64,000 nt of DNA from Halobaculum roseum (GTDB lineage: Archaea; Halobacteriota; Halobacteria; Halobacteriales; Haloferacaceae): positions 2,250,521 through 2,314,520 of the forward strand of contig NZ_CP082286.1 in NCBI RefSeq assembly GCF_019880245.1, written 5' to 3'. The translations under genes and the position numbers were made by a program. This document shows, in pieces, positions 16,996 through 44,780 of the stretch; within the stretch, counting starts at the first letter, position 1; the number at the start of each line of letters is the position of its first letter. The notes beneath the pieces are model-generated. The model saw nothing but the letters and a program-made list of their open reading frames with translations, searched no databases and had not been told where the DNA came from.

Positions 16996-17020
16996 CGCTC
17001 TTGTGTAGCACTTTGTTGAT
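16996..17020 (+). repeat. Terminal inverted repeat, left
   Basis: It begins CGCTCTTGTGTAG and pairs with 17972-17996 with four mismatches. The transposase stop codon (17022-17024) lies directly inside it. Confidence 0.8.
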
Positions 17021-17021
17021 C

Positions 17022-17906
17022 TCACAGCGTAGCTTTGATAGCGTGTTTGAGCGCTTCTCTTCCCGGTTTCCGCAGTAGTTTTCGTCGAAGCTGGAACGCT
17101 CGGAGATACTGTGTGAGCTTATCTTTTGAGACGCCTCGATGAGGCGAGAGCCACGGTCGCAGCAACGATCCGTGGCTCTCGCAGGTATTGACGTGGACGT
17201 CTTCATTCGCGTATTCGCCGTCGCCGTGGACGACGTATTCGCGGTCGAATGCGTCGTCCTCGTCGAGTGGGTCGTAGGTACGAAATCCGTCAGTGTAGAC
17301 GGTCAGTGGCTCCTTCTCGCGGTTTGCGAGAAGGAGCCGAACCGTCGATTCATCGGCGGATTTCGCGGGGATCACATACCGATTGCCGGTGCCGCGATCG
17401 ACGATCGTGAACACCGGCGGTTTGTCCTGCTCGTACGATCCTCGTCCACGCGTGGACAGGCCACGCGAGCGCGACCGACCGTCGCGCTCGCGGCCTTTCA
17501 GCCCTGCAGAAACGTAGACTTCGTCGATTTCGACGGGACCGACGAGGTCGAGCGAAGGCGCGTCGAGCGCCTTCGTGAAGCGCTCGACGCGCTGGTAGAT
17601 CGTTTTGTACTGAACGTCGATTTCGAGCTGAAGTTGGCGAAGACTCGTGTTAAACCGGAGAAACGCGTAAATCGAGAACAGCCACTTCCTGAGCGCGACT
17701 TTCGAATGGGCGAAAATCGTGCCGGTCTTGTCGTTGAATGTGCGGTCGCAATTCTTACAGAGATAGCGCTGAAAGTGCCCATAGCTGCCGTTCTTGACCG
17801 TTCGGTCAGAACGGCAGCGAGGGCAAGTAACACCGTTACGCCAGCGAACCTGCTGCAACAGGTCCGCTGCGACCGATTCCGACCCAAACACATCTAGCGG
17901 AATCAT
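17022..17906 (-). CDS. IS1595-family transposase
   Basis: This 294-residue protein is full length for the family. It starts with a zinc ribbon (CPRCRSDRTVKNG and YLCKNCDRTF), followed by an HTH region. A DDE-type catalytic core follows, with the first Asp in VEIDEVYVSAG, the second in VYTDGFRTYDP, and the His/Asn-rich end NTCESHGSLLRPWLSPHRG with KLTQYLRAF. It should cut and paste the 1001-bp element that carries it. The start at 17906 follows a strong leader hairpin. Confidence 0.92.
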   Translation of the reverse strand: MIPLDVFGSESVAADLLQQVRWRNGVTCPRCRSDRTVKNGSYGHFQRYLCKNCDRTFNDKTGTIFAHSKVALRKWLFSIYAFLRFNTSLRQLQLEIDVQYKTIYQRVERFTKALDAPSLDLVGPVEIDEVYVSAGLKGRERDGRSRSRGLSTRGRGSYEQDKPPVFTIVDRGTGNRYVIPAKSADESTVRLLLANREKEPLTVYTDGFRTYDPLDEDDAFDREYVVHGDGEYANEDVHVNTCESHGSLLRPWLSPHRGVSKDKLTQYLRAFQLRRKLLRKPGREALKHAIKATL

Positions 17907-17913
17907 GCCTAAC

Positions 17914-17935
17914 GGACACCGCTGACGCGGTGTCC
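17914..17935 (-). promoter_or_regulatory. Perfect hairpin in the transposase leader
   Basis: A 9-bp perfect stem (GGACACCGC with GCGGTGTCC) and a 4-base loop lie 8 bases before the transposase ATG. It could block read-through transcription or translation of the transposase. Confidence 0.6.
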
Positions 17936-17971
17936 TTGCTCTCTTCGATTCTACGGCGACAGCTAAGCGCC

Positions 17972-17996
17972 ATCAACAATCTCCTACAGAAGAGCG
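17972..17996 (-). repeat. Terminal inverted repeat, right
   Basis: Reverse-complement partner of 16996-17020, with 21 of 25 positions identical. Confidence 0.8.
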
Positions 17997-35436: not shown

Positions 35437-36564
35437 ATGGTGCAGATTCCACTCTCCGATTACGGTGTTGAGTGGTTCAAAGACATCCTCGGTCAGATAA
35501 CTGCATGGTTCAGAGAACAGCTCGTTGAGGGATATCAGAAACTTACTACGGAGCTGTTTGAAACACCGCTCCCCGACGGGACTGGGTTGGAGGTCGTATT
35601 CGATTCTCCGGAGCCAGGTACTACCCCGTGGTACGATGTCTATCAGACCGTCGTCGGCGGGGAAGTGATGATTCTAGCGCTCATCATTCTATTCCTCTCC
35701 GTTCAGGGACGCCATTTCGTCCGGGTATTCCATTTTGGATCTCCACAACGCGACCGGCGAACACGCCGTAATGCGTGGACTGGTGGCTGTCTTATCGTTG
35801 CGTGGTACTGGATCGCCGTACTCACACTGTACTTCGTCAATGGATTGATCATCGGGATAATCCCGAACGTCACACAAATCGGCGCGGGTGTTCTGGAATT
35901 ACTCCCTACGTCCGCAGTGAACCCCGTAATGACGTTCGGACTCACGAGCGTTGGTGCTGTCGCACTTTCGACTCTCCAAGCGATCTTCTTCCTGCGGGAA
36001 GTCCTCCTGTACGTCTATCTGTACGGGATGCCGATCGGCCTCGCGTTCGCGTTCGGCAACCTCCCCGTGGTCTCGCGGATCGCCGCCCGCTTTTGCAGAC
36101 AGTTCATCCCACTCGCGGTCCTGCCGATCCCGGCTGCCGTGCTGTTCCGTGGCTACGGGTTGTTGTTCGGCGGCGATCCCGTCGTCTCCCCGACCCGACC
36201 GCTGTTCGGCTACGTCGTCGCGATCTCGTTGCCCGTGGTGGGGCTGTACGTCACGTGGAAGACGTTCCGGTACGCCGCGCCGCTGGTTACGGGCGCGCTC
36301 GCACGGACCGGGCGGACCGCCGCGACGCTCGGGCTCGTCGCCGGGGTGGGTGCGACCGTCGGGGGCGGGGCCGCGGCGACGACCGCCCGCTTCGGCCCGC
36401 GTACCGGCATGACTTACGCGGCCGTACAGCGCGTCACTGACGGCGGGTCGTCACAACGCGGCGCATCGACGACGACGACCCAGGACAACGTCGCGACCGA
36501 CCGGTCCGGCGACGGGGGGATCCCGGCCTACCGTCGTCCAGAGAACGACCCGGGGCGCACCTAA
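35437..36564 (+). CDS. Polytopic membrane protein, VirB6/TrbL-like
   Basis: This 375-residue protein has about seven hydrophobic segments (for example GGEVMILALIILFLSVQG, CLIVAWYWIAVLTLYFVNGL and LFGYVVAISLPVVGLYV). A periplasm-type N-terminal domain of about 70 residues precedes them, and an unstructured Gly/Thr-rich tail follows. VirB6/TrbL proteins have this layout and form the inner-membrane channel of type IV secretion systems. The first 550 bases are of lower G+C content than the rest, matching the switch in the upstream gene. It lies 3 bases after the lipoprotein gene. Confidence 0.6.
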   Translation: MVQIPLSDYGVEWFKDILGQITAWFREQLVEGYQKLTTELFETPLPDGTGLEVVFDSPEPGTTPWYDVYQTVVGGEVMILALIILFLSVQGRHFVRVFHFGSPQRDRRTRRNAWTGGCLIVAWYWIAVLTLYFVNGLIIGIIPNVTQIGAGVLELLPTSAVNPVMTFGLTSVGAVALSTLQAIFFLREVLLYVYLYGMPIGLAFAFGNLPVVSRIAARFCRQFIPLAVLPIPAAVLFRGYGLLFGGDPVVSPTRPLFGYVVAISLPVVGLYVTWKTFRYAAPLVTGALARTGRTAATLGLVAGVGATVGGGAAATTARFGPRTGMTYAAVQRVTDGGSSQRGASTTTTQDNVATDRSGDGGIPAYRRPENDPGRT

Positions 36565-36567
36565 TCG

Positions 36568-37656
36568 ATGAGTTCCGACTCCACCGCAGCCGACCGTCGT
36601 ATCATGACCCAACTGGGGGAAGCACACCGGATCCCGCTGGTGAACCTTCGCGAGGGTGACTTCGGCGTTCTCGTCGGGTTTCCCGTCGCGGGACTACTGG
36701 CGGGGAGCGTGCTGTTCGACCCGCTCGTCGTTCCGCTCGCTCTGCTCGGCCTCGTGGTCGGTGTCGCGGCGGTGTACGCCGCTCCGCGTCACCTGACCGC
36801 CTCGAGGTGGCTCCGGGACGTGGGTCGGTATCTCCTGTGTCGCCCGCGGTACACGCTCTCGCAGCCGGCCGGGGCCGACCACTCCGGTACGGACGGCGAA
36901 TCGGTGCCCTACACCCCGTTCATCCCCGACGAGCGGACGCAGGACCTCACGAACGTCGCACGAGCGTGGCCCGGGACGGGCGTCATCGAACGGGAGGACG
37001 GCGCGCTCGAAGCGTTCATCACCGTTCGGCCGGGCAACATGGACTTCGCGATGTCGGGCGACTGGGAACAGCTCCAGGCGACCGGCGCGCGGTTCGCGAA
37101 CAACGACCTCGAGTTCCCGCTGACGGTCCATACGACGACCCGCGCGTTCCCGGCGGACCGCCTCGTCGACCGCCTCGCCGACCGGCAGGCGGACCCCGAC
37201 GTGGCGAGCAACGACGCCTTCGCCGCGCTCCTGAAGGAGTACCGCGACCGGCGACCGGCGGAGTTGGCGGACACCACCCGGCACCGCTACTACCTCGGCG
37301 TCACCGTCACCCCGTCGGACGTTGCGAGTCGCCGCCACGGCGAATCCTCCGTCCGCGACCGGCTCACCGCCATCCCGGTCGTCGGGGTGGTCGTCGCGGC
37401 CCTCCTCTCCCGGCCGACTGGGGGTGGACCGGCCGCCCGTCGGCAGGCGATGTACGACCGCCTCTGTGACCGCCTGCACACGCTGGAGCACGACCTCGTC
37501 GAGCCGATGGCCGACTGGGAGCATCGCCGGCTCTCGACGCTGGAGTTGTTCGTCCTCGCGGCGGAGTTCTGGAACGGGCCCGAGTACGACGACGCCGAGC
37601 GGCTGCTCGCGACGGCGCCGGCGCCGGGCCGCGCCCGCCGGCGGGAGGACGACTGA
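36568..37656 (+). CDS. VirB3/PrgI plus VirB4-N-like membrane protein
   Basis: The 362-residue protein begins with two membrane segments (FGVLVGFPVAGLLAGSVLF and VVPLALLGLVVGVAAVYA) and a basic loop, as in PrgI or VirB3. It continues with the N-terminal domain typical of VirB4 (PGTGVIEREDGALEAFITVR, then RPGNMDFAMSGDWEQLQATG). The segment YLGVTVTPSDVASRRHGESS has the strand pattern of that domain. The next gene begins inside its stop (TGATG). It should link the membrane complex to the ATPase. Confidence 0.65.
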   Translation: MSSDSTAADRRIMTQLGEAHRIPLVNLREGDFGVLVGFPVAGLLAGSVLFDPLVVPLALLGLVVGVAAVYAAPRHLTASRWLRDVGRYLLCRPRYTLSQPAGADHSGTDGESVPYTPFIPDERTQDLTNVARAWPGTGVIEREDGALEAFITVRPGNMDFAMSGDWEQLQATGARFANNDLEFPLTVHTTTRAFPADRLVDRLADRQADPDVASNDAFAALLKEYRDRRPAELADTTRHRYYLGVTVTPSDVASRRHGESSVRDRLTAIPVVGVVVAALLSRPTGGGPAARRQAMYDRLCDRLHTLEHDLVEPMADWEHRRLSTLELFVLAAEFWNGPEYDDAERLLATAPAPGRARRREDD

Positions 37657-39728
37657 TGCAGGCGGCGATCGCCGACCTCGTGGCGGCGCTACAAACGCTG
37701 CCACGGCCGCTCTCACCTGAGGGACTGTTCGTCTACGGCGTCGGAGGTGTTACCCTCCTCGTCGTCTTTGCCCGGCTCCGACAGTGGCTGGCCGGCCGGG
37801 GCGATACACAGACGTTCGGCGATCTTCTCGCGGAAGAGACCGTCGACGCAGGTCGTGAGGAGGCAGTTGCGTTCGACACGCTGGCGGACCGGCACCGAAC
37901 GGCGCTCGCGCCCGAAGCCGTCGAGTGGGAGCCGCGTGCGGCACGGGTCGGCGACCAGTGGACGACCACGCTCACCGTCGCGGCGTACCCCGACCATCCG
38001 ACCGACGGCTACCTCAGCGGCCTGTTCGAGCTGACCGACATCGAGTTCGATCTGACGGTCCACGTGGACCCGCTGCCCCAGGAGCGGGCCCGCGACCGCC
38101 TTCAAGCGGCCGCCGACGACCTGCAGGCCGACGCGGATCTGGAGCGCAGCGTGCGGGAGTCGTACCTGCAGGACCGCGCGGCGGCGGCGACGGCCACGTA
38201 CAAGGCGGTCGAGAACGGTCAGCGTGTGTTCTCCCAGTCGCTGTTCATCACCGTCCGGGCGGACTCCCGCGAGGACCTCACGGACGCCGTCGCCGCCGTC
38301 CGCACCGCGGTGCGCGACCCGCCGGCACGGCTGGAGCCGGCGACGGCGGTGTGTCTCCAAGACCGGGCGCTGCAGGCGGCCGCACCCATCGGCGGCGACC
38401 CGCTCGATCGCGGCTCCATCGCCCTCGGCGGCGCCGTCGGCGCCCTCCTCGCGTCGCCACACTCGCCGACGATCCTCGAGGAGGGCGGCGTCGAGTTCGG
38501 CGTGCACAAGGACACGCGGAGTCCGCTCGTGGTCGACCCGTTCGCCCGCGAGGACGGCTACGCGATGTTTACGGTCGGCGACCCCGGCTCGGGGAAGTCC
38601 TACAGCGCGAAACAGAACTTCATCCGGAGTCTGTCGCAGTCCGACGACCGGATCGGGATCGTCCTCGAACCGCTCACCAACTGGGCCGGCGTCTGTGAGG
38701 CACTCGGCGGCCGGCGGATCACCGTCGGCGGCACGCTCGGTCTCAACCCCCTGGAGATCAAGCCGACGCCCGAGCACGTGCTGGAGGCTCGCGGCGACGA
38801 CGCGAGCCCGCTGAAGGAGCGTCAAGAGCGGGCGCTGGCGTTCTTCACCAACGTGTTCGCCACGCGGGGCGTCGAGTTGGGTGACCGCCGCACGACGCTG
38901 GAGACGGCGCTCACGGCGGCGTACGAGCGGAAGGGCATCACCGAGGACGTCTCCACCCACGACCGGGAGAGTCCGACCGTCCGCGACATGCTCGATATTC
39001 TCGCGGAGATGGCCGACGCTCCCGGCGAATACGTGATCCGGACCGACGACGAGGCGAAGAAGATCGCCGACGACGCGGTGTGGCTGCTCGACCAACTGCG
39101 GCCCTTCGCCGAAGACGGGCAGTTCGAACAGCTCGGTCGCCACAGCGAGTTCGACATCCGCGACGAGTCGCTGGTGTATCTCGATCTGGCCGAGCAGGGC
39201 GGGCAGGTCGGCGGGCATACGAGTCTCCTGATGGAACTGCTCATCTCGCTGGTGTACGAGCGAGCCAAGGAGACGGACCAGGAGGTCGTCTTTGTCATCG
39301 ACGAGGCGCGGTACCTCATGAAGGACGCGGCGACGCTGTCGTATCTGGAGACGATCTTCCGGCACCACCGCCACCACGACCTGTCGATCCGACTGGTGAC
39401 CCAGACCGTCGACGAGTTCTTCGAGCACGACACCGCGGAGATGATCCTCGACCAGTGTGCGATCAAGCAGTTCCACAAGCTCGACGGGATGGACAGTGAG
39501 TGGGCCGACGAGTTCGGCTTGAACCACCCGCAGATGCGGTTCGTCCAGACGGCGACGCCCGGCGACGAGGAGGCCGGCTACTCGCAGGCGTTGCTCGGTG
39601 TGGACGGCGAGTGGCGCGGGATGGAGGTCCGGGCCTTGCCGCGGGAACACGAGGTGATCACCCACGACCCGCAGCAGGCGGACGGCCCGCTCGCCGACGA
39701 CCCCGGGGAGGTGGCCGCCGATGACTGA
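37656..39728 (+). CDS. VirB4-family conjugation ATPase
   Basis: The 690-residue protein has a membrane-proximal N-terminal region (VYGVGGVTLLVVFARLRQW), then a VirB4-like domain, then an ATPase core. The Walker A GDPGSGKS (about residues 308-315) is preceded by GYAMFTV, and Walker B is VVFVIDEARYLM (about 545). The arginine-finger-like segment FRHHRHHDLSIRLVTQTVD follows. Such HerA/FtsK-type ATPases drive pilus assembly and DNA transfer in type IV secretion. It overlaps both neighbours. Confidence 0.85.
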   Translation: MQAAIADLVAALQTLPRPLSPEGLFVYGVGGVTLLVVFARLRQWLAGRGDTQTFGDLLAEETVDAGREEAVAFDTLADRHRTALAPEAVEWEPRAARVGDQWTTTLTVAAYPDHPTDGYLSGLFELTDIEFDLTVHVDPLPQERARDRLQAAADDLQADADLERSVRESYLQDRAAAATATYKAVENGQRVFSQSLFITVRADSREDLTDAVAAVRTAVRDPPARLEPATAVCLQDRALQAAAPIGGDPLDRGSIALGGAVGALLASPHSPTILEEGGVEFGVHKDTRSPLVVDPFAREDGYAMFTVGDPGSGKSYSAKQNFIRSLSQSDDRIGIVLEPLTNWAGVCEALGGRRITVGGTLGLNPLEIKPTPEHVLEARGDDASPLKERQERALAFFTNVFATRGVELGDRRTTLETALTAAYERKGITEDVSTHDRESPTVRDMLDILAEMADAPGEYVIRTDDEAKKIADDAVWLLDQLRPFAEDGQFEQLGRHSEFDIRDESLVYLDLAEQGGQVGGHTSLLMELLISLVYERAKETDQEVVFVIDEARYLMKDAATLSYLETIFRHHRHHDLSIRLVTQTVDEFFEHDTAEMILDQCAIKQFHKLDGMDSEWADEFGLNHPQMRFVQTATPGDEEAGYSQALLGVDGEWRGMEVRALPREHEVITHDPQQADGPLADDPGEVAADD

Positions 39729-40908
39729 CCCGCCGGTTCCGACCGCCGACCGCCTGCCGGAGACGCTGACAGACCGCGACCAGTGGGTGTGTTGGCGCAG
39801 CGAACAGCGGGACGACAAGTCGACGAAAGTCCCGATCGAGCCGGGCGGCGGGTACGCCTCCGCGACGGATCCGGACACGTGGCGGTCGTTGTCCGTGGCG
39901 AGAGACCACGCCGTCGATACGGGCGACGCAGGGGTCGGCTTCGTCTTCACCGACGACGATCCGCTCGTCGGTGTCGACCTCGACGATTGCCGGGATCCGG
40001 ACACGGGTGCCCTTTCCGAATCGGCCGACGATATCGTCGAGCAGCTGAACTCATATACCGAGGTGAGTCCCTCGGGGACCGGCATCCACGTCATCGTCGC
40101 CGGCGACCTGCCCCGGGGCCGGAACCGACGTGGCGACGTGGAGCTGTACGACTCGGCACGATACTTCACCGTCACCGGCGACCGCGTCGACGGCACGCCC
40201 GATCACGTTGCCGAGCGACCCGAAGCGCTCGCCGCCGTCCACTCGGCGTACGTGGCACCGGACACGAGCGCCGCGAGCACGTCGGGATCCGACGCCGCCG
40301 CTTCGTCGGCCTCCCGATCGGGGAAGCAGGGGCCGGGGAACAGACTCTCGGACGCGGACCTCATTGACCGTGCGAGCGACGCCGCCAACGGCCCGAAGTT
40401 CCGGCGCCTCTGGCGTGGGTCCACTGCGGGCTATCCGAGCCACTCGGAGGCCGACATGGCGCTGTGTTCGCTGCTGGCGTTCTGGACGGGCGGCGACCCC
40501 GACCAGATGGATCGCCTGTTCCGGGAGTCGGGGTTGTATCGCGAGAAGTGGGACGAGGTCCACTTCAGCGACGGCGCGACGTACGGTGAGCGGACGATCG
40601 AACGCGCGATCGCGAGAACGGACGAGTACTACGATGAGAGTTCCAGTGAAGGCTGGACGCCTCTTGCGGTCACGAGCGCTGAGGATCGGGCATCGGAGCA
40701 AGCAGCCGGCAGCGGCGACGAGGGGTCGGTCGCGGACACGACCGGAGACGCGCTCGCGGATCTTCGAGCCGAACTGGCCAAGCTCGAGCAGGAGACGGAA
40801 CGGCTCCGGGAGGAACTCGCCGTCGAGCGGACGCGCCGAAAGGAACTCGAACGCGAACTCGCACAGCAGGAATCGTCCCGACTCTCGCGATATCTCCCCT
40901 GGCGGTGA
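39721..40908 (+). CDS. PrimPol-type (NrS-1-like) primase with coiled-coil tail
   Basis: The start lies 8 bases inside the VirB4 gene. The 395-residue protein has an archaeo-eukaryotic-primase fold: LVGVDLDDCRD holds the catalytic Asp pair (about residues 86-89), SPSGTGIHVIV is motif II (about 116-126), and ELYDSARYFTVTG is motif III (about 140-152). A helical domain (SEADMALCSLLAFWTGGD and RTDEYYDESSSEGW) follows, as in NrS-1-type polymerases, then a coiled coil (AELAKLEQETERLREEL). No helicase domain is attached. It likely primes element replication or second-strand synthesis after transfer. Confidence 0.75.
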   Translation: MTDPPVPTADRLPETLTDRDQWVCWRSEQRDDKSTKVPIEPGGGYASATDPDTWRSLSVARDHAVDTGDAGVGFVFTDDDPLVGVDLDDCRDPDTGALSESADDIVEQLNSYTEVSPSGTGIHVIVAGDLPRGRNRRGDVELYDSARYFTVTGDRVDGTPDHVAERPEALAAVHSAYVAPDTSAASTSGSDAAASSASRSGKQGPGNRLSDADLIDRASDAANGPKFRRLWRGSTAGYPSHSEADMALCSLLAFWTGGDPDQMDRLFRESGLYREKWDEVHFSDGATYGERTIERAIARTDEYYDESSSEGWTPLAVTSAEDRASEQAAGSGDEGSVADTTGDALADLRAELAKLEQETERLREELAVERTRRKELERELAQQESSRLSRYLPWR

Positions 40909-40920
40909 TGACCGCGCGGT

Positions 40921-40946
40921 CGGTTTTTGGGCACCCCGACGGGTGC
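40921..40946 (+). repeat. Intergenic hairpin repeat, copy 4
   Basis: CGGTTTTTGG then a GCACC/GGTGC stem around loop CCGACG (inner C-G pair possible). It begins 12 bases after the primase stop. The middle stem pair is A-T, the third variant of that position. The next start (GTG 40948) follows directly. Confidence 0.6.
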
Positions 40947-40947
40947 A

Positions 40948-41157
40948 GTGCGCGTACATTCACTGGTCGCTCGACTCAGGCGTATCGCTGCAGGAACCGA
41001 ACCGGACTGGGATCCGCTCGGAGTCGGCCGCGTCAGAACCTGCGAGCATCCTCGCGAGGCGATCCGCCGTAGCGACGAACCGGCACACGATTCCCGTATC
41101 GAGCAGTGTCAGGCGTGTGGGACGATCCTGCGCCGGTATCCGCTCGGAGATCTGTGA
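40948..41157 (+). CDS. Small Cys-containing protein
   Basis: From the GTG at 40948 this 69-residue protein reads VRVHSLVARLRRIAAG and ends IEQCQACGTILRRYPLGDL. It has one CxxC at the end plus a Cys-His pair (TCEHP), so a small zinc site is plausible. Its stop overlaps the next ATG (TGATG). A TTG at 40927 would place the start inside the hairpin. Family not recognised. Confidence 0.5.
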   Translation: MRVHSLVARLRRIAAGTEPDWDPLGVGRVRTCEHPREAIRRSDEPAHDSRIEQCQACGTILRRYPLGDL

Positions 41158-41449: not shown

Positions 41450-42667
41450 CTATTCGACGCCGGCCGCGGCGAGCCATTGGAACGTGCCGCTCCGTCCGGC
41501 GAGCACGAGCGGGTAATCCTCGACGACGATCCGGTAGTAGGGACGCGTCGCATCGACCCACGAACAGTGCGTCGGCTCCTCAAACCCGCTCGGCACGTGG
41601 CGACAGTACACCCGCCAGTCGTCGCGGCGATGGTACGCCGGCGTGACGCCCGTTTCAACACACAGTCGGAGCACGTGGCCCGCGAGCCGGTCACTGACCG
41701 TGTAGTAGGTGCGCTTCTCGTTCCCGTCGCCGGCGAGCAACGTTTCCAGCAGCAGGCGCTTCTGTGCGGGTGAACAGTCCCACACGAGCGACGGGAGCCG
41801 CTTCGAGCGACTGTCCGATCCACACAGCCGCGAGAAGATCCGGCCGTAGCAGTTCGAGCCGATTCTGAACGACCGATCGTCCTCCCGATAGGCGATTCCG
41901 AGCCGATCGAGGAGGCGTCTGATCGTGTCGCGGTACCGCGGTGTCTCCTGAGCGATCTTGACCGAGGCACTGTTCCGGTCCGATCCGGTGTAGATCGACC
42001 CTTCCGTCACGAGCCAGCCGAGCAGTTGAATGAAGTCATCGCCCGCAAACCGGTACGGTCGTGGGCGCTCCTTTGCTCCCGTTCGGATCCCGAGCGCGGT
42101 CGACTCCGCGTCGATGGCCTCCCGGTAGGTGTCGAAGGTCGCGGGATCGAACGCGTAGCCGACCTGTTTGTGTCGCCGTTTCGGTTCACACCCCGCTGGG
42201 AGTGCCGCTCGGAACGAATGCCCGTGCGACCCGTCGTACTGCGCGACGATCTCGTACTCCGTCGCGTGGTCCGTGAGGTCGACGACCTCCGTTCGGGACC
42301 TCCCGAGAGGGGTCCACTCGGAGATGAACCGATAGCGATGCCGCTCGTCCAGTCGATCCGCTCGCTGGTAGCGAACCAGGTCGATGTCGTCGGTCACGAA
42401 CGGCACGTACTGGCCGGGTGCCAGCCGGAGCCGCGCTCGTTGCGCGTCGATGTCGACCGCCGCCGCAGGTTCGATACGGTCCACGTCGACGACTCGCTTC
42501 AGTTTCATCGTCCGACTCAGGGGTTCCATCGTGTAGATACGGTCCCCACGCACGAGTTGGTCGACCGGGCAACTCCCGTCGGCGCCGAGCACGTTCGTTC
42601 CGGCGGCTAGTCCGCCGGACCGACCGCTTTCAGTCGGTGTGACGCCGTGTTCGGTGATGGTATCCAT
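41450..42667 (-). CDS. Free-standing Hint-domain LAGLIDADG homing endonuclease
   Basis: This 405-residue protein has an intein-like Hint start (GLAAGTNVLGADGSCPVDQL, about residues 19-38) where the usual nucleophilic Cys is replaced by Leu/Gly. It then has two LAGLIDADG helices, LLGWLVTEG (215-223) and LLLETLLAGDG (305-315), each with the acidic residue that binds metal. The C-terminus (RIVVEDYPLVLAGRSG) looks like intein block F but lacks the terminal His-Asn. No exteins are attached, so splicing is not possible, while DNA cleavage could be. It probably spreads the element by cutting at a target site. Confidence 0.75.
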   Translation of the reverse strand: MDTITEHGVTPTESGRSGGLAAGTNVLGADGSCPVDQLVRGDRIYTMEPLSRTMKLKRVVDVDRIEPAAAVDIDAQRARLRLAPGQYVPFVTDDIDLVRYQRADRLDERHRYRFISEWTPLGRSRTEVVDLTDHATEYEIVAQYDGSHGHSFRAALPAGCEPKRRHKQVGYAFDPATFDTYREAIDAESTALGIRTGAKERPRPYRFAGDDFIQLLGWLVTEGSIYTGSDRNSASVKIAQETPRYRDTIRRLLDRLGIAYREDDRSFRIGSNCYGRIFSRLCGSDSRSKRLPSLVWDCSPAQKRLLLETLLAGDGNEKRTYYTVSDRLAGHVLRLCVETGVTPAYHRRDDWRVYCRHVPSGFEEPTHCSWVDATRPYYRIVVEDYPLVLAGRSGTFQWLAAAGVE

Positions 42668-42744
42668 CTCACCGCCGGTTGGTCCGGTGTTCGTATTTGA
42701 ATCTCAGCCGCTGGGCCTCTCTGATCACCGCTTCACAACTTGGT

Positions 42745-42929: not shown

Positions 42930-42976
42930 TTGATGCCTTCCAGAGTTCTAACCATAGGTGTATGTAATCTCAACAA

Positions 42977-42985
42977 ACTATTTAT
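42977..42985 (+). promoter_or_regulatory. TATA box of the PD-(D/E)XK gene at 43009
   Basis: ACTATTTAT is centred about 28 bases before the ATG at 43009, which argues for that start over 42958. Confidence 0.6.
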
Positions 42986-43008
42986 CGCCAATTTCGTTAA
43001 GTACGCCA

Positions 43009-44553
43009 ATGACTGACCAGAGTGAACTGTTCGACCTTTTGGAGCTTCAGCAAGACGAGGACATGTCGTGCAGCGAGAGGCTCGCCAAAATTCGCCAGAA
43101 TGCAAGTTCTATCCCACGCACAGGCCTCTATTACGTCTCTGAAATAATTGGGGACTGTGTTGAGAGCAATCAGAGAGACTGCCTCGAAACTGTGTATGTT
43201 CTGGCAAAGGAAAATGTGGGGCCTGATTCTGACCTCCGTCATGGCCTCATGGCGATCTCAAACGCAGATATGGCAGTCGTCAATGATTTCATACAGTCGA
43301 TAATCGAGGAAGAGGAAGTAACCGAGTCGCATTATCTCTCACGGATTGTTCCCTATCTGTACCGTGGGCATGAATCAGAACTCGTTGAACAACTTGAGGA
43401 ATGGAAAGAGACGCATGAGTATTTCTTTTGGCAAGCTATTGATTTGATTCTCAAACAGTATAACCGAGATAGTGAGAAACCGAACGAAGAGTTTGCTGAT
43501 GAAATTCAGCTGTTGAAATCGACACTCCAGAGAATCGCTAAATCGAATGGTGTAGAACCGAACGACAGTGGCCTTGGGAACTCCGAAATTGCAAAGGTCC
43601 ATAATTTGACCAAGGACATCTATTACGAGGGACGCGGGATCAGCAAAGAGCGAATCCAGAAAAACCTCGAATTATATCCGAATCTGAAAAAGTTCTTAAC
43701 GGCCCAAGAGACGTGGCTTGATACCTTACTGGAGCAGAATCAGCATCCGTTAGCGTACCGGCTTTCCTACGAACACACCGAGGAGGAGTGTAGGCAAATC
43801 GTGAATTCTGATGATGCGGAGCAGTCTGACAAACGAAATGCTAAATTCTGTCTTGACAAGATAGCCCTTCTCAGGTATTATGACGAGTGTTTCGCCGCGC
43901 TAGATATGGAATCAGATAGTGACCTTACCTCGAACCTTCGGCACGGTATATTAGACCGCTCGAATTTCGAGAGTGCAATCGCTGAGATTGAGGTGCTGCG
44001 AGCTTTACGCAGCGAATTCGGCCCTGATAATGTTGAGTTCGAACCGGAGGTACCAGAGTCCTCAAAAGTCACTGATTACCGTGTTTCTATCGCGGGAGAG
44101 AACATCTGGATTGAGCTAAAACATCCGGACCCCTCCGAACCAGCGGCTATCGGGGACATTTACTCTCTTGATATGGACCCTGAATCAAGCCCGGTTCGTT
44201 CAGCGGTGACCGAAAAGATGGAGCAGTTGAACCCGGCCAAGGAAGCAACCGATGACCTAACGATGGTACTACTGAAGACTCAACCATCGAAAATTGATGA
44301 AGTGGCAGTTAGAAGTTATGTCGCAGGCCCAGAGATGGCAGTAATTCCTGAAGATGGTGATACTGACGACTTAGATGTGGTGCGTGGAAAATCGGGATTA
44401 TCGTATAACGAGCGGACTGAAAATCTCGATATTCTTGCTCACTACAAGACTACCGGAGACGCAACTGAGGAACCGTATATTCGTTGCCGTGGATACCTCT
44501 TATCCGATATTGATGAAGATGTTGTTCAGCGACTAAGCGGCTTCCTGACGTGA
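43009..44553 (+). CDS. Putative PD-(D/E)XK nuclease protein
   Basis: The ATG at 43009 gives 514 residues; a longer frame from 42958 includes the TATA box. The first 320 residues are helical and unlike anything I recognise. The C-terminal core has FESAIAEIEVLRALRSEFG, then VTDYRVSI (Asp at about residue 356) and NIWIELKHPD (Glu 369, Lys 371), a classic D-ExK nuclease site. The G+C content is low relative to the flanks. It lies at the right edge of the element, a usual place for defence cargo. Substrate unknown. Confidence 0.65.
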   Translation: MTDQSELFDLLELQQDEDMSCSERLAKIRQNASSIPRTGLYYVSEIIGDCVESNQRDCLETVYVLAKENVGPDSDLRHGLMAISNADMAVVNDFIQSIIEEEEVTESHYLSRIVPYLYRGHESELVEQLEEWKETHEYFFWQAIDLILKQYNRDSEKPNEEFADEIQLLKSTLQRIAKSNGVEPNDSGLGNSEIAKVHNLTKDIYYEGRGISKERIQKNLELYPNLKKFLTAQETWLDTLLEQNQHPLAYRLSYEHTEEECRQIVNSDDAEQSDKRNAKFCLDKIALLRYYDECFAALDMESDSDLTSNLRHGILDRSNFESAIAEIEVLRALRSEFGPDNVEFEPEVPESSKVTDYRVSIAGENIWIELKHPDPSEPAAIGDIYSLDMDPESSPVRSAVTEKMEQLNPAKEATDDLTMVLLKTQPSKIDEVAVRSYVAGPEMAVIPEDGDTDDLDVVRGKSGLSYNERTENLDILAHYKTTGDATEEPYIRCRGYLLSDIDEDVVQRLSGFLT

Positions 44554-44609
44554 GGTAGAAACCTCGCGCCAGTTCGATTGTCGAGCGATGAGAGCTATTA
44601 GTAGATGGT

Positions 44610-44780
44610 GACTGTCATAGTTCAGCAGCGTCGTCTTCCCGACGCCCATCGATCCGGAGAACAGGACGACGCCGCGGTGCTCGTACAGCATTCAAAGGAG
44701 CGTGACCAGCTCCGTCGGGAGCGGCCCCGAGTTCACCAGATCGACCGGCGTATCGGGTGGCTCCGAGCACGCGTCGTTCA
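44610..44780 (-). pseudogene. P-loop ATPase remnant
   Basis: On the minus strand TPVDLVNSGPLPTELVTLL is followed by an in-frame stop, then MLYEHRGVVLFSGSMGVGKT, an intact Walker A motif, and then the frame ends within 30 residues. It overlaps the 3' end of the EamA gene. It is the debris of a larger ATPase gene at the junction between the element and chromosome-like DNA. Confidence 0.5.

Follow-up and report, generated by a model that had tools for sequence, protein, structure and literature searches.

A stand-alone LAGLIDADG protein on haloarchaeal conjugative elements, probably a polymerase intein turned free-standing homing endonuclease

What is the role of a protein that has the splicing blocks and the nuclease core of an intein, and no host protein around it? 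The question is raised by a gene in the window analysed here, a stretch of 64,000 nucleotides from the genome of Halobaculum roseum (G000). The first-pass annotation, made from the sequence of the window, had described a stand-alone Hint-LAGLIDADG protein without exteins, perhaps a former intein now used by a mobile element as a site-specific nuclease. We propose that the protein evolved from an intein of a family-B DNA polymerase (PolB) and is now a free-standing homing endonuclease. The exteins and the splicing activity would have been lost once, long ago, and the gene would since have spread on integrative conjugative elements. We consider this explanation probable.

The reading frame is real. 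It begins with the ATG at 42667, ends with the stop codon at 41450 on the minus strand, and is conserved in 15 other genomes; the window genome itself holds a single match of this kind, the endonuclease gene (Table 1). Pfam searches of the 405-residue protein matched LAGLIDADG_3 (4.9e-6) and, below threshold, Hint_2 at residues 20–49. The AlphaFold2 model, built from 24 aligned sequences (pLDDT 90.7, pTM 0.89), has a Hint and a LAGLIDADG fold, in agreement with the domain architecture first described. When the model was compared with solved structures using Foldseek, intein endonucleases ranked at the top, with PI-PkoII (3.1e-19) accompanied by TliVMA, PhoVMA, PI-PfuI and PI-SceI; WhiA was also among the matches. 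PI-PkoII (2cw7) is the best solved match by both sequence and fold and, unlike the window protein, is a true intein endonuclease. In the window, the gene comes after an operon with TrbL-like, VirB4 and NrS-1-type primase genes.

Table 1. Features of the candidate endonuclease gene and its surroundings (window positions).
Feature	Position	Strand	Basis or remark
Stand-alone, probably ex-intein LAGLIDADG endonuclease gene, 405 aa	41450..42667	-	ORF, Pfam, homologues, fold
Degenerate N-terminal Hint (splicing) half, residues ~17-150	42218..42619	-	Alignment with 13 PolB inteins; AlphaFold strands
Gly19 in place of Cys1	42611-42613	-	Alignment with PolB inteins
Predicted LAGLIDADG endonuclease core, residues ~205-355	41603..42055	-	Pfam, alignment
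E222	42002-42004	-	Invariant, 24/24 aligned proteins
D314	41726-41728	-	Invariant, 24/24 aligned proteins
Degenerate C-terminal Hint strands (blocks F, G), residues 376-405	41453..41542	-	His and terminal Gln lost; alignment
46-bp upstream block; bounds the 1.27-kb mobile unit on one side	42668..42713	-	Near-identical in L032 (G294)
TrbL_3/VirB6-like membrane protein	35437..36564	+	Pfam 3.9e-120
Conserved gene of the conjugation operon, after TrbL and before VirB4	36568..37656	+	Also in L033, L044
VirB4-type conjugation ATPase	37656..39728	+	NCBIfam VirB4-like 4.4e-38, under family cut-off
Gene with NrS-1-type primase-polymerase HBD domain	39721..40908	+	Pfam 1.7e-32
Small Cys-containing ORF after primase	40927..41157	+	Adjoins endonuclease in L032 too
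Remnant of chromosomal T2SSE (pilus/secretion ATPase)	44581..44766	-	Residues ~426-485 of L121 homologue

Homologues were sought in 391 genomes of the same (haloarchaeal) class at E 1e-5 or better, with at most four candidates scored per genome. Under these settings 154 of the 391 genomes gave a match, and stand-alone homologous frames occurred in 16, the window copy included. The other 15 proteins are 38–92% identical to the window protein, and the gene spans four archaeal families. None of the 16 has exteins or lies in frame inside a host protein, and none has an internal stop. Open frames of 413–463 residues were found for 15 of the 16 copies; the frame of 700 residues in G327 extends further upstream, and this extension contains no supported extein. 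The strongest matches that are not stand-alone sit within long frames of ~1300–2700 residues. The hosts examined are family-B DNA polymerases (Pfam DNA_pol_B on L019 and L018), in which the intein is inserted between KVIMN-like and SLYG sequences, a site that presumably corresponds to polB-b in the usual nomenclature.

The nearest inteins are those of family-B DNA polymerases, and they share 33–37% identity with the window protein in an alignment of 24 proteins (16 stand-alones and 8 inteins). In the tree, the 16 stand-alone proteins form one clade (support 100/100) whose sister is the PolB intein of L018 (98/92); the tree and the residue counts given below use 13 of 14 inteins, the L026 intein being left out. 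Tree and fold together indicate common descent with inteins, and the suggestion of a former intein is upheld. The annotation had also held that homologues with normal intein junctions inside a split host protein would speak against this suggestion. Such homologues do exist, namely the PolB inteins, and they constitute the ancestral group outside the stand-alone clade; since they are not members of that clade, they do not refute an ex-intein origin. The intein closest to the clade (L018/L047, contig 3 of G229) sits in an additional, divergent PolB, which is encoded on a contig of 136 kb. This polymerase is possibly encoded by an element or a virus and may have been the source of the stand-alone clade.

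Other collections were searched as well. The window protein had no match in a plasmid collection, and in a phage collection 32 records matched the nuclease part only, all at below 30% identity among the 20 matches listed. With the single sequence as query, nothing was found in IMG/VR; with the alignment as query, 38 loci were found, and all seven that were opened are in-frame inteins in long frames, inserted at a comparable site of a polymerase.

The residues required for splicing and those required for cleavage have fared differently. Position 1, the first nucleophile, is Cys in 13 of 13 inteins and Gly in 16 of 16 stand-alone proteins (Gly19 in the window protein), as the annotation had noticed. 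The block-B T..H pair is intact in all 13 inteins and reads A..Q in the window protein; across the 16 stand-alones the Thr is always lost and the His is lost in 6. The block-F His, present in 12 of 13 inteins, is missing from all 16, and the terminal Gln has become V, A or T in every one of them. The +1 Ser is still present in 13 of 16. A missing terminal His-Asn had been cited as a sign of lost splicing. These residues are indeed missing, but the nearest in-frame inteins themselves end in Gly-Gln (13/13), so that the absence of His-Asn alone would not prove a loss of splicing. The diagnostic losses are the terminal Gln, the block-B Thr and the block-F His, each found in 16 of 16. With Cys1 also gone, splicing is not expected. 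Conversely, both acidic metal residues are retained, as had been claimed: E222 and D314 are conserved in 16 of 16 stand-alones and 13 of 13 inteins, and the alignment, the model and the Pfam LAGLIDADG_3 match agree on two helices that each end in a metal-binding acid. The haloarchaeal PolB intein at KVIMN|SLYG thus resembles the window protein in fold and nuclease core, whereas its in-frame position, its exteins and its set of splicing residues have no counterpart in the window protein. Alleles of this PolB intein are listed in the accessible text of PMC4071816.

If the protein is a homing endonuclease, it would break both strands at a specific site in gene-free DNA; on repair of the break from a copy that bears the gene, the gene would be inserted along with element DNA next to it. 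The Hint remnant would probably serve in DNA binding and as a folding scaffold, as the Hint part does in PI-SceI and HO. The polB gene as a continuing target is disfavoured: the KVIMN|SLYG site is empty and uninterrupted in all 16 genomes that carry the stand-alone gene, and polB is therefore apparently no longer the target. Alternatively, the site could be intact because the protein is not expressed. The present target would probably lie near the gene's present place and, for several members, would be a chromosomal pilus-like locus. A separate observation concerns the polB intein, which occurs in none of the 16 carriers and in about 106 of the 391 genomes by hand count (P ~0.006, uncorrected for kinship and with at most four candidates scored per genome).

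In undisturbed genomes (G022, G063, G184), the pilus-like locus is a cluster of genes for a T2SSE ATPase, T2SSF, DUF7263, DUF7262 and DUF7261, with domain names checked on the proteins of G022 and G185. The whole cluster was found in none of the 16 gene-bearing genomes. Among these, a near full-length T2SSE is present only in G373 and a full DUF7261 only in G185; DUF7261 is 5′-truncated in G082, G100, G351, G373, G274, G327 and G282, and no good DUF7261 match was found in the remaining 8. A 5′-truncated DUF7261 thus adjoins the gene in several genomes and is absent in others. In the window, a T2SSE fragment is all that is left of the cluster, and it identifies the side on which the element faces the chromosome. 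In G294, the whole cluster is replaced by the element, with the same neighbours on either side. The replacing segment of G294 also contains a 357-residue frame (L032, 6031-7104, minus strand) that includes a complete ribosomal protein S17 domain (residues 34–101).

The gene-bearing end of the element lies beside the pilus-like locus or its neighbour gene in 10 of the 16 genomes. The distance from the gene to the locus or neighbour gene is ~10–13 bp in G082 and G100, 21 bp in G282, ~60–68 bp in G351, 97 bp in G327, ~0.3 kb in G185, 1.3 kb in G373, 1.9 kb in the window, 2.5 kb in G294 and 20 kb in G274. In G082 and G100, DUF7261 coding sequence begins almost directly behind the nuclease stop codon. 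The junctions of G082, G100 and G351 are all near the 'AAVIA' codons of DUF7261, and the break in G373 and G274 is a few codons further; junctions near the same codons are found in three lineages. The element of G373, ~83 kb long, is flanked by T2SSE and the DUF7261 stub and has a coupling protein and a primase at one end and VirB4 and the nuclease at the other; T2SSF, DUF7263 and DUF7262 were not found in this interval. As far as it was read, the order in G274 and G351 is that of G373, with T2SSE lacking in G351.

As a control, the start of DUF7261 was compared across the class, in which 222 of 391 genomes had a match at E 1e-9 or better. Among the 150 matches listed, 145 start at profile position 1–4 and 5 at position 10 or later, and all five late-starting ones among those listed belong to gene-bearing genomes (P 1e-8). 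When the association is collapsed to three lineages, P is 8e-6, a value that includes no wider kinship correction. In G019, DUF7261 is truncated as well, and the first ~60 residues of a decayed endonuclease copy stand at the same junction, followed by unrelated inserted DNA.

Integrases of the PF00589 family are scarce around the gene in the genomes checked. None was found on the gene's contig within 100 kb of it in G000, G100, G082 and G191, and the G294 contig of 39 kb has none either. The G373 element contains a PF00589 fragment and the G351 element a sub-threshold match, and an integrase lies 45 kb from the gene in G185. The PF00589 integrases of G274 and G240 lie between the pieces of a split T2SSE and apparently belong to another element. 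As for possible attachment sites, ARAGORN detected no tRNA in the window and, across the element stretches, a single tRNA-Ala, which lies in the region of G351; an Rfam search of the window found nothing. The foreign DNA that carries these integrases and splits T2SSE is at G240:C7:331837-354932 and G274:C1:2775986-2783103, and in both genomes residue 552 is the first residue of one T2SSE piece. Elements of more than one kind seem to target the pilus-like locus.

Position, the truncation control and the scarcity of PF00589 integrases suggest that the nuclease may direct integration of the element into the pilus-like locus. It is possible, and we put this forward tentatively, that integration of the element is determined by the endonuclease, which would cut the locus and let repair copy the element in, replacing the middle of the locus. 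The recurrent junctions and the decayed copy in G019 fit this explanation. Several genomes do not: G383 has a coupling protein beside a truncated DUF7261 and no detected copy of the gene, and in G056, G190, G267, G152 and G214 DUF7261 is truncated although no copy lies within ~1.5 kb. Moreover, no such junction was found for 6 of the 16 members, the gene of G274 is far from its junction, and the integrase of G185 and the PF00589 traces in G373 and G351 also count against it. Somewhat more doubtful is the extended form of this idea, a homing conjugative element whose nuclease would cut the locus in the recipient, so that the whole element (as large as that of G373) would be copied in and T2SSF and the pilin-like genes replaced. 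If this were true, a homing endonuclease would take the place of an integrase and would disable the pilus-like system of the host.

The probable homing endonuclease is under purifying selection. In the two close pairs, dN/dS is 0.045/0.367 (G000–G294) and 0.060/0.391 (G082–G100), i.e., 0.12–0.15, and it is low in the Hint-N and nuclease parts alike. The gene is therefore no chance reading frame. The conserved acids, the fold and this selection lend indirect support to the predicted nuclease activity of this splicing-dead former intein. A DNA-binding regulator would likewise be under purifying selection. WhiA, a bacterial regulator of the LAGLIDADG type, binds DNA without cleavage, and its fold is of the same type as that of the window protein; together with the conservation of the Hint part despite the loss of splicing, its appearance among the fold matches could point to a domesticated regulator. 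However, the window protein keeps both catalytic acids, which are invariant in all 16 proteins, and a patchily distributed, mobile gene is unlike a core regulator. We consider such a role improbable.

Linkage of the gene to conjugation functions is tight. VirB4, a coupling-protein-like ATPase (called from weak TrwB/TraG Pfam matches) or a primase lies near 13 of the 15 other copies, and the NrS-1-type primase gene recurs near the endonuclease at 5 of these 15 loci. Whole-genome searches place VirB4 or a coupling protein within ~12 kb of 15 of the 16 copies, the sole exception being G371, where the gene is on a 19.8-kb contig; the probability of this linkage by chance is ~2e-18, assuming a generous 8 such genes per genome. 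The constant association with coupling protein (T4CP), VirB4 and primase genes, and the fact that no relaxase turned up in a few general scans, would be compatible with an enzyme of conjugation itself, for example a relaxase substitute that starts DNA transfer. Of the 391 genomes, however, 222 have T4CP and 250 have VirB4, and most of these are without the endonuclease gene, which occurs in 16. A core conjugation factor is rejected on this frequency, and the far wider distribution of T4CP and VirB4 makes the nuclease an occasional passenger. The gene also moves independently of the conjugation genes, and a conjugation enzyme is very unlikely.

This independent movement is visible in the two closest copies. 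Those of the window and G294 are 89.6% identical over ~1267 bp, and the shared unit is bordered at −45 upstream of the ATG and at ~+3, about the stop codon. The 46-bp upstream block is probably a promoter. Between the two species, dS is 0.37 for the endonuclease gene and 0.33 for polB, whereas for the carrier elements it is 1.48 (VirB4) and 1.62 (primase). A second G294 element, on contig 3, is much closer to that of the window (VirB4 dS 0.27), yet lacks the gene, the single G294 match being on contig 16. The gene has therefore changed element: the same 1.27-kb unit is common to two diverged elements. No flanking homology was detected within ~120 bp of these two copies, which therefore reveal no common target, and neither inspection by eye nor blastn revealed a motif shared by the immediate flanks of all copies. 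The nuclease may be of use to its element, as the annotation supposed. Linkage in 15 of 16 genomes agrees with this, but most element-bearing genomes lack the gene and the gene moves between elements alone; it is at least partly a passenger of conjugative elements. A functionless, decaying intein remnant, to which the vanished splicing motifs and the broken copy in G019 might point, is the least likely explanation and can hardly be reconciled with the low dN/dS of both pairs, the intact catalytic acids and the lack of internal stops in 16 of 16 genes.

How does the proposed ex-intein endonuclease compare with known systems? To our knowledge, yeast HO/WHO is the known case of a splicing-dead, intein-like protein turned stand-alone nuclease. 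A search of titles and abstracts, with most subscription papers outside its reach, found no report from prokaryotes of a stand-alone intein endonuclease that is splicing-dead and carried by conjugative elements. According to the accessible text of PMC7282813, HO/WHO proteins are, like the window protein, stand-alone, intein-derived LAGLIDADG proteins without exteins or splicing. The same portion of that paper describes WHO genes that adjoin target-gene fragments beginning near one position, which resemble the DUF7261 stubs beside the archaeal copies, and WHO elements that replace part of FBA1. There are also differences: in that text, HO/WHO is closest to the yeast VDE intein, has a zinc finger, is eukaryotic and lies off conjugative elements, and its cleavage is demonstrated (PMC7282813), whereas the nuclease activity of the archaeal protein is predicted from sequence and model. 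The window protein stops 4 residues past the intein end, and a C-terminal zinc-finger domain is absent. The archaeal family thus resembles HO/WHO in organisation, as a prokaryotic analogue; with a different ancestor and no zinc finger, it would not be a member.

Free-standing homing endonucleases of T4-type phages have a different origin and, unlike the window protein, are not splicing-dead inteins with a Hint fold. They are likewise gene-sized mobile nucleases without an intron or intein, as the available part of PMC3943268 indicates. If the proposed origin is correct, a separate archaeal lineage took an HO/WHO-like step from a polymerase intein and, in association with conjugation, has persisted across four families. 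Both intein escape and the idea of endonuclease-driven integration can be tested directly with the 16 sequences, the intein that is their sister, the truncated pilus-like locus and relatives that lack the gene.

Two further features of the window were observed. Between the endonuclease gene and the chromosome side of the element, a 531-residue frame (42958-44553, plus strand) contains a string that we take to resemble a PD-(D/E)xK nuclease motif; it had no Pfam match above cut-off and no PADLOC match. A stretch of 1001 bp at 16996-17996 is repeated with 100% identity near G000:C1:2203630, ~64 kb away, and is probably an insertion sequence.
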